From assembly GCF_001955655.1 (NCBI RefSeq), contig NZ_MSPW01000001.1, positions 558,001-622,000 of the forward strand: 64,000 nt of DNA. Direction: 5' to 3'. Positions 50,418-63,709 of this stretch are shown here, piece after piece (the stretch's first letter is position 1; the number at the start of each line of letters is the position of its first letter). The DNA is from Viridibacillus arenosi (GTDB taxonomy: Bacteria > Bacillota > Bacilli > Bacillales_A > Planococcaceae). Under the pieces are notes generated by a model, which was not told the DNA's origin, ran no database searches, and saw only the letters and a list, made by a program, of their open reading frames with translations. Made by a program: the position numbers and the translations under genes.

Positions 50418-50689
50418 ACTATTTACTGCACTGCCTTAATCACTTCTCCATTGTACCAAATCCTATTTTCACATTATCTAATTTAGCTTTTTCAATCGTT
50501 GTTTTTACTTATATTTGGATCATTATAAATAACTTTCTATATAAAGGTAGGACTTTGCTACAAGCATTTGGGCATGCGATAAATTTTCTACTAAGTCTAA
50601 TCATACTTCAATAATTTTAGTAGTGATGTTAAAAAATACAACAACTAAATTTCATTTTGTTACCTTTTATAACGATTCGATTTTTTGTT
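50418..50689. other. Gene-free region between convergent rqcH and VOC gene
   Basis: About 270 AT-rich bases. No ORF with a start and ribosome binding site is visible on either strand, and no clear hairpin beyond the rqcH terminator. Short open stretches exist but are not protein-like enough to call gene remnants. Confidence 0.5.
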
Positions 50690-51619
50690 TTATGCAATTT
50701 CAAAAACCATACGATTTCCACTTGGATCTTCTACAACAAACTCATCCCCTAAATCTTGAATTTGTATTTGTTGTTTAATATAATTTTTTGCTGTCTCATA
50801 ACTTTCTGTTGTTGGTAATTTAAAACGTACTTCTTTCAATCCTGATTCATTTTCAGCTGCCTTTTGAAGTCCTTCACCCGACCATACATTTCCCGCAAGA
50901 TGGTGATGATAGCCCCCTACTGAAATAAAAAATGCTGTATCAATAATCATCTGTTTTTCAAAACCTAATTTATTTATATAGAAATCTACGGATTCCTCTA
51001 TATTTGCTATTCGCAAATGAACATGACCAATTATTGTTTCAGCTGGTAATTTCCCATCTGTTTCAAAATCAGCTAATGGAGCTAACTCTTTGAAATTAAG
51101 AGGATTACTTCCACCAGGATACTTATCCCAATCTTCACGATGACGATCCGCATATATTTCTATACCATTTCCTTCAATATCATATATATAAAACGCCTCA
51201 CTATAACCGTGATCACTCGCACTATCTAACCTAGCAATTGGAATATAGCGTTCAAAGTGCGGGAAACGTGAAGATTGCTCTATCGGACTATCTATCGTTT
51301 CCTTATTACGTAGAATTTCGAAAAATTTCGTTGCAAACGCTTCTCTACTTGGTAATAAAAAAGCTGTATGGAATAAACCCGTACTTTTAGCGGGTTGTAA
51401 TTTTTCCGCGGTTTTTTCTAATTCAAAAATAACGTTGTTACTGCCTTTACCACCAAATTTAGCATGTTGTGTACTTTTTTCTAAAACGACAAGACCAACT
51501 ACATTTTCGTAAAATGCAATTTGACGTTCCAAATCTTTTACTTTTAAAATGACACTTCCAACTTGTGTTGCAGCATCCAATACAAATTTACCTTGTTTCC
51601 CATCAATTCTTTGTACCAT
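50690..51619 (-). CDS. VOC-family ring-cleaving dioxygenase-like protein (CatE type)
   Basis: 309-residue protein with two tandem vicinal-oxygen-chelate modules, like CatE-type catechol 2,3-dioxygenases. The first half has QVGSVILKVKDLERQIAFYE and GYSEAFYIYDIEGNGIEIYA. The second half carries the probable metal ligands: His in TIIGHVHLRIAN, His in VGGYHHHLAGNVW and Glu in the final MVFEIA. Substrate is unknown. It starts after AGAGAGAGG and directly follows a SAM-type riboswitch leader and terminator, so expression should rise when S-adenosylmethionine is low. It is a single-gene unit between pyrE and rqcH. Confidence 0.85.
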   Translation of the reverse strand: MVQRIDGKQGKFVLDAATQVGSVILKVKDLERQIAFYENVVGLVVLEKSTQHAKFGGKGSNNVIFELEKTAEKLQPAKSTGLFHTAFLLPSREAFATKFFEILRNKETIDSPIEQSSRFPHFERYIPIARLDSASDHGYSEAFYIYDIEGNGIEIYADRHREDWDKYPGGSNPLNFKELAPLADFETDGKLPAETIIGHVHLRIANIEESVDFYINKLGFEKQMIIDTAFFISVGGYHHHLAGNVWSGEGLQKAAENESGLKEVRFKLPTTESYETAKNYIKQQIQIQDLGDEFVVEDPSGNRMVFEIA

Positions 51620-51673: not shown

Positions 51674-51710
51674 AAAAAACTCTCTTTCTACATCTTCTAG
51701 AAAGAGAGTT
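51674..51710 (-). terminator. Riboswitch-controlled terminator before the VOC gene
   Basis: Perfect 13-base stem AACTCTCTTTCTA (51678-51690) and TAGAAAGAGAGTT (51698-51710), then six T on the minus strand. The far arm (51706-51712) can instead pair with 51724-51730 (GAGTTGA/TCAACTC) as an antiterminator. Confidence 0.88.
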
Positions 51711-51723
51711 GAGGGGGGCTAAT

Positions 51724-51842
51724 TCAACTCTTATCTCTCATAATTGCACGCAATCATGTTGAAGTTAGCTCCTTCCTAAAAATTAGGTGTTGCTGAAACT
51801 TCAGTGGGCCATTTCCTTCAGTTTCTCAAGTAAAGAAATCCA
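51724..51842 (-). promoter_or_regulatory. SAM-I (S-box) riboswitch-like leader
   Basis: Minus-strand landmarks in S-box order: a P1 5' strand near CTTTAC-TTGAGA, a P2 helix GAAAC/GTTTC enclosing a kink-turn-like TGAAGGA, TGGCCC (51806-51811), and GCAAC (51789-51793). A P3 arm CCTAA/TTAGG follows, then GGAGCTAACTTC (51761-51772, consensus GGTGCTAAwTCC). A P4 arm CAT-TTGC/GCAA-ATG spans 51739-51758, and GAGAGATAAGAG (51728-51739) gives the P1 3' strand. P1 pairing is imperfect (about four of six core pairs). Antiterminator and terminator follow in the standard layout. Confidence 0.78.
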
Positions 51843-51876
51843 CTTAATATCCCTAGTTAACTTATTGGTTTAATTG

Positions 51877-51905
51877 ATTTTAAAACAATTTCCATAATTA
51901 AGCAA
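51877..51905 (-). promoter_or_regulatory. Candidate promoter of the S-box/VOC unit
   Basis: Minus-strand TTGCTT (51900-51905), 17-base spacer, TAAAAT (51877-51882). The predicted start near 51870 leaves about 25 bases before the riboswitch P1. Confidence 0.5.
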
Positions 51906-62985: not shown

Positions 62986-63683
<698 letters not shown>

Positions 63684-63709
63684 TGAATATTTTGTTTTTC
63701 ACTACGACA

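Follow-up and report, generated by a model that had tools for sequence, protein, structure and literature searches.

A SAM-I riboswitch leader upstream of a VOC-protein gene in Viridibacillus arenosi is probably a decayed relic

Results

The VOC locus of Viridibacillus arenosi

The window analyzed here is a 64,000-nucleotide stretch of the V. arenosi genome (contig NZ_MSPW01000001.1, positions 558,001 to 622,000). On its minus strand, pyrE (52681-52031) is followed by an S-box (SAM-I) leader and then by a gene encoding a two-domain, CatE-like VOC protein of 309 residues (51619-50690). An earlier note made from this sequence had described the VOC gene as the only gene downstream of the leader, and indeed it is the sole coding region between the leader and an rqcH-like gene that is convergent with it. 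Ranked by identity of the VOC protein, the nearest genomes are those of Viridibacillus arvi (95%) and V. soli (90%); in the comparisons with these sister species V. arenosi is represented by one genome, so strain polymorphism or a local sequence error is formally possible. Elsewhere in the window, at positions 63551-63687, an ordinary PyrR binding site (RF00515, 64 bits) shares its strand with the pyrimidine operon.

The VOC protein (gene at 50690..51619, minus strand) matches the Glyoxalase family (PF00903) in two stretches. No NCBIfam equivalog reaches its cut-off against the protein, a PDB search with the single sequence gave no match, and a PDB profile search returned only weak matches, to glyoxalase I and homoprotocatechuate dioxygenase. 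The metal triad, previously described as apparently intact, is only partly borne out: among 14 relatives, residues H84, E154, H199, H201, H238 and H239 do not vary, but conservation of the C-terminal glutamate (E307 region) is limited to a few genera.

The leader descends from a SAM-I riboswitch and retains its expression platform

The leader contains a degraded SAM-I aptamer (RF00162; 51728..51837, minus strand), which cmscan matches over the full length of the model at 51.6 bits, above the gathering score of 44.4 (E 5.9e-09 for the window). This is the outcome of the Rfam check that the earlier note had proposed, as was a search for the same leader-gene pair in relatives, and orthologous S-box leaders do precede the VOC gene in V. 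arvi and V. soli, where they score 86.6 and 86.5 bits, respectively, as compared to 51.6 bits in V. arenosi. A chance match was considered and rejected based on the E-value and the conservation of the leader in the sister species. The SAM-I identification is therefore right by descent, given the RF00162 match and sister leaders of 86-87 bits, although the extent first assigned to the element (51724-51842) is a few bases too long. The S-box landmarks that had been listed belong to a real element, but two of them are damaged versions when compared with both sisters. Specifically, both sisters have GGTGCTAACTCC where the V. arenosi leader has GGAGCTAACTTC, and the 5’ strand of P1 reads CTTTAC in V. 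arenosi and CTTATC in V. arvi and V. soli.

The remainder of the leader is well preserved. A candidate sigma-A promoter, recognized by eye (TTGCTT-17-TAAAAT; 51877..51905, minus strand), has hexamers and spacing that are identical in V. arenosi, V. arvi and V. soli; its -35 element is weak, with 3/6 consensus positions, and a consensus scanner did not list it. Based on sequence and folding, the 5’ half of the antiterminator (GAGTTGA; 51724..51730, minus strand) overlaps the 3’ strand of P1, and its 3’ half (TCAACTC; 51706..51712, minus strand) overlaps the 5’ arm of an intact intrinsic terminator (51674..51710, minus strand), which consists of a 13-bp stem (51710-51678, -17.0 kcal/mol) and a U run. 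Both the antiterminator halves and the 13-base terminator lie where they had originally been placed, the pairing of the halves is supported by the folding model, and the antiterminator and terminator are mutually exclusive, as expected of an RF00162 expression platform. About 0.2 such matches would be expected by the terminator scan in shuffled sequence. The terminator is conserved in all three species, the V. arenosi stem being the strongest, and the downstream half of the leader has acquired one change on the V. arenosi branch in 107 columns. In folding calculations on V. arenosi transcripts that end in the terminator loop, the antiterminator forms with a probability near 1; in the full-length leader the terminator state is favored by ~3.7 kcal/mol, similar to V. 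arvi.

The V. arenosi aptamer has accumulated uncompensated lesions

The V. arenosi and V. arvi aptamers differ at 8 of 110 positions. Because V. arvi is identical to V. soli at all eight sites, all eight changes are assigned to the V. arenosi branch; the V. arvi branch has none across the same 110 nucleotides. Following T. tengcongensis SAM-I numbering, and all on the minus strand, A6U and U7A (51831..51832) break two P1 pairs and eliminate U7, G21A (51817) breaks the G21-C31 pair of P2b, a U to A change at position 25 (51812) breaks the outer pseudoknot pair, and C48A (51788) breaks the C48-G55 pair of P3. In the P3 loop, an A to U substitution (51781) is probably neutral, and C65U in J3/4 (51762) converts a pseudoknot G-C pair to G-U. 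In the SAM-I structure, U57 pairs with A45 in the step that reads the adenine of SAM, and U57A (51770) removes this pair.

Four of the altered positions, A6, U7, G21 and U57, are among the nucleotides that are more than 95% conserved in SAM-I riboswitches, in which U7 contacts the SAM sulfur (PMC3764141). These SAM-contact and P1-junction nucleotides are all substituted in V. arenosi, and G11, C44, A45, A46, G58, A87 and U88 are unchanged; the V. arvi and V. soli leaders retain A6, U7, G21 and U57, as well as G11, C44, A45 and G58. The broken pairs thus comprise two in P1, one in P2b, 48-55 and 45-57 in P3 and one in the pseudoknot, with P4 and P2a intact, and no compensatory partner change in the V. 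arenosi aptamer restores any of them. Folding calculations yield P1 pair probabilities of at most 0.2 for the V. arenosi aptamer, whereas in the sisters all but the terminal pair have values near 1.

Judged by the letter case of the Rfam consensus, one of the conservation measures used, 6/8 V. arenosi changes fall at conserved positions, as compared to 1/9 between V. arvi and V. soli. At fourfold-degenerate sites of the VOC gene, pyrE and pyrF, a comparison based on few substitutions, the V. arenosi and V. arvi branches show 4.3% and 5.9% change, respectively. The rate of 7.3% on the V. arenosi aptamer branch is consistent with neutrality (P 0.33), and the complete lack of change in the V. arvi aptamer has a probability of 1.7e-4 under neutrality. 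Nine other S-box aptamers differ between V. arenosi and V. arvi at 9/961 nucleotides in total vs 8/110 here (Fisher p 1e-4), and the scores of the genome's other S-boxes are nearly equal in the two species. Purifying selection still acts on the VOC gene itself (dN/dS of 0.135 vs V. arvi). On this sequence evidence, the V. arenosi lineage has probably lost constraint on the VOC-leader aptamer, and the V. arvi aptamer is conserved.

Could the V. arenosi leader nonetheless be a working SAM riboswitch whose affinity has weakened, such that it is tuned to high SAM only? Its score is still above the Rfam gathering score, its promoter, antiterminator and terminator are intact, and the seven nucleotides from G11 to U88 named above are retained. 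However, P1, P2b, P3, the pocket and the pseudoknot have all been struck without compensation, including U57 and U7, and P1 is predicted not to form, which makes this explanation unlikely. Because four of the lesions lie at highly conserved nucleotides, none is compensated and the changes have accrued at a neutral rate, the V. arenosi aptamer is probably decayed, most likely a SAM-blind relic.

Substitution of pocket nucleotides on a retained expression platform might also signal respecification of the aptamer to a different ligand. The spermidine riboswitch provides a precedent: this SAM-I variant, which is known from Viridibacillus, has an altered J1/2 and P3 internal loop and intact helices (PMC10853860). 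Like this class, the V. arenosi leader is a diverged SAM-I scaffold, found in the same genus, with a score near gathering. The published variant retains the four-stem architecture and has polyamine genes downstream, whereas the V. arenosi lesions lie in P1, P2b, P3 and the pseudoknot, its J1/2 does not differ from that of V. arvi and V. soli, and a VOC gene follows it. Moreover, the spermidine type is already present elsewhere in the genome (L014/L094) with A6, U7 and U57 retained, the rate of change is neutral-like, and the variant occurs in no second species. A change of ligand is therefore very unlikely, above all because the breaks in P1, P2b, P3 and the pseudoknot are uncompensated.

The L014/L094 element (V. 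arenosi C33:42535-42657) is a sub-threshold SAM match of 43.8 bits that precedes a second metK, an ornithine/lysine-type decarboxylase gene, speD and speE; it fits the published spermidine riboswitch class (PMC10853860), and corresponding matches occur in all three Viridibacillus genomes (43.8, 43.8 and 41.7 bits).

The V. arenosi genome contains 14 S-box-like elements, as does each sister genome. Where the downstream genes could be read, they are mostly sulfur genes, including those for MetN-type transporters, metK, trans-sulfuration enzymes and a homocysteine-methyltransferase-like protein (names assigned by sequence recognition). A second weakened S-box, in V. soli (C27, L091:1661-1760), scores 53.9 bits, whereas the leaders orthologous to it score 84.3 and 80.5. 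Its kink-turn/P2 is damaged and its P3 altered, and it heads an intact operon containing an acyl-CoA-dehydrogenase-like gene and an amino-acid ABC transporter.

Remnants of an ABC transporter adjoin the VOC gene

In V. soli, a permease gene starts 36 nucleotides after the VOC stop codon; genes for an ATPase and a lipoprotein-type binding protein come next, all on the same strand as the VOC gene. This spacing suggests that the four genes form an operon headed by the S-box leader. The best NCBIfam matches of the permease, ATPase and binding protein are to cystine ABC models, as for transporters of the TcyJLN, YxeLMNO-like and YtmJKLMN-like types, but none of the three proteins reaches the curated equivalog cut-off. 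The probable substrate of the transporter is a sulfur amino acid. Several of the nearest relatives in the family are encoded together with a GNAT acetyltransferase, in operons resembling yxeLMNO, and no S-box was found within the 1.5-kb flanks of the transporter's closest relatives.

Fossils of this transporter, 55-90 bp in length, persist on the minus strand of V. arenosi between the VOC gene and rqcH (E 1e-14 to 1e-21). They correspond to the start of the permease gene (50602..50655; nucleotides 1-55 of the V. soli gene, 82%), a further permease segment (50526..50612; nucleotides 492-579, 81%) and part of the substrate-binding protein gene (50455..50528; nucleotides 579-651 of the V. soli gene, 89%). 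The permease block spanning nucleotides 492-579 is also present in V. arvi with identical deletion ends, and neither the V. arenosi nor the V. arvi genome has an intact copy of the transporter. The shared fossils and deletion ends indicate that the transporter was lost in the common ancestor of V. arenosi and V. arvi, and it is only the fossils that exclude a separate gain of the transporter in V. soli alone.

The fossils also bear on the suggestion that the riboswitch was captured. In favor of a leader that was captured by the VOC gene and never regulated the transporter, which V. soli would have gained separately, the gene order in Kurthia and Rummeliibacillus is pyrE-VOC-rqcH with neither an S-box nor a transporter. 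Permease and binding-protein pieces nevertheless lie between the VOC gene and rqcH in V. arenosi, and the permease piece in V. arvi has the same breakpoints, which renders such a history extremely unlikely. Capture without an operon was thus rejected for the genus Viridibacillus, and the earlier note's ‘captured riboswitch’ gives way to a leader that heads a VOC and amino-acid ABC operon in V. soli.

No S-box-VOC pair was found outside the genus. The VOC orthologs that Kurthia, Rummeliibacillus and two other genera have at E-values of 1e-40 or lower lack an S-box upstream, and in 399 genomes spanning the class none came up at E 1e-50 apart from V. arenosi's own. The Kurthia and Rummeliibacillus orthologs, with no upstream S-box, thus lend no support to a general sulfur role for the VOC protein. 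In a further genus of the family, the VOC ortholog immediately precedes a strong S-box (105 bits), behind which lies a metA-like homoserine succinyltransferase gene (L033:2549-2657, L040:488-596); this is a second arrangement that places VOC near an S-box, and it may be coincidence. The Rummeliibacillus VOC locus is flanked by several Bacillaceae-1 RNA elements (RF01690; L027, L035).

Discussion

We consider it probable that an ancestral VOC-transporter operon lost its transporter genes by deletion, and that the aptamer subsequently decayed in V. arenosi with loss of the SAM response. In the Viridibacillus ancestor, a transcriptional SAM-I OFF switch would have controlled the VOC, permease, ATPase and binding protein genes: when SAM is scarce the antiterminator would form and RNA polymerase would enter the operon, and when SAM is abundant the SAM-bound P1 would free the terminator. 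The ancestor of V. arvi and V. arenosi then deleted the transporter genes, leaving the fossils. V. arvi has retained the conserved aptamer over the VOC gene alone, with SAM-dependent termination expected there and in V. soli. In V. arenosi, constraint on the aptamer would have been lost, together with P1 and the pocket nucleotides for SAM; the promoter, antiterminator, terminator and VOC gene remain, and expression of the VOC gene is predicted to be SAM-independent. The default state of this leader would probably be read-through rather than silence, as the antiterminator wins in the modeled partial transcript, and the strong terminator makes a constitutive OFF state a lesser possibility. The perfect antiterminator and terminator, with the strongest stem of the three species, sit oddly with full abandonment of the leader.

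The V. arenosi leader adds a new, degraded member to a known class of riboswitches. It resembles other RF00162 members in its full-length covariance match, the order of P1 through P4 and a platform overlapping the 3’ strand of P1, but differs from them in lacking A6, U7, G21 and U57, in its weakened P3 and pseudoknot, and in heading a VOC gene. Literature searches found no report of a SAM riboswitch before a VOC or glyoxalase gene, and nothing on point concerning decaying riboswitches.

The other reading in the earlier note, a sulfur-related substrate for the VOC enzyme that had gone unrecognized, does not follow from V. arenosi, where the aptamer is very probably without SAM sensing and thus offers no basis for inferring such a substrate; the transporter operon offers a simpler origin for the sulfur link. 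In V. arvi, the aptamer remains intact over the VOC gene alone although the transporter is gone; SAM control of the VOC gene thus seems to be of use there, and a sulfur-related role of the protein is possible. More tentatively, the VOC protein might act on a sulfur compound once imported by the lost transporter, which would be why V. arvi retained SAM control, though we hold this to be less likely than not to be the case. If true, the protein would be a previously unrecognized sulfur-metabolism enzyme of the VOC type.

The three species thus appear to capture the stepwise loss of a regulatory RNA, from the V. soli operon, through V. arvi, which lacks the transporter and retains the switch, to V. 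arenosi, in which the switch has decayed. They caution that a match above the Rfam gathering score may be a dead aptamer, and that an odd riboswitch-gene pair may be all that remains of an ordinary operon. In V. arvi, the leader provides a lead to a SAM-regulated VOC enzyme.
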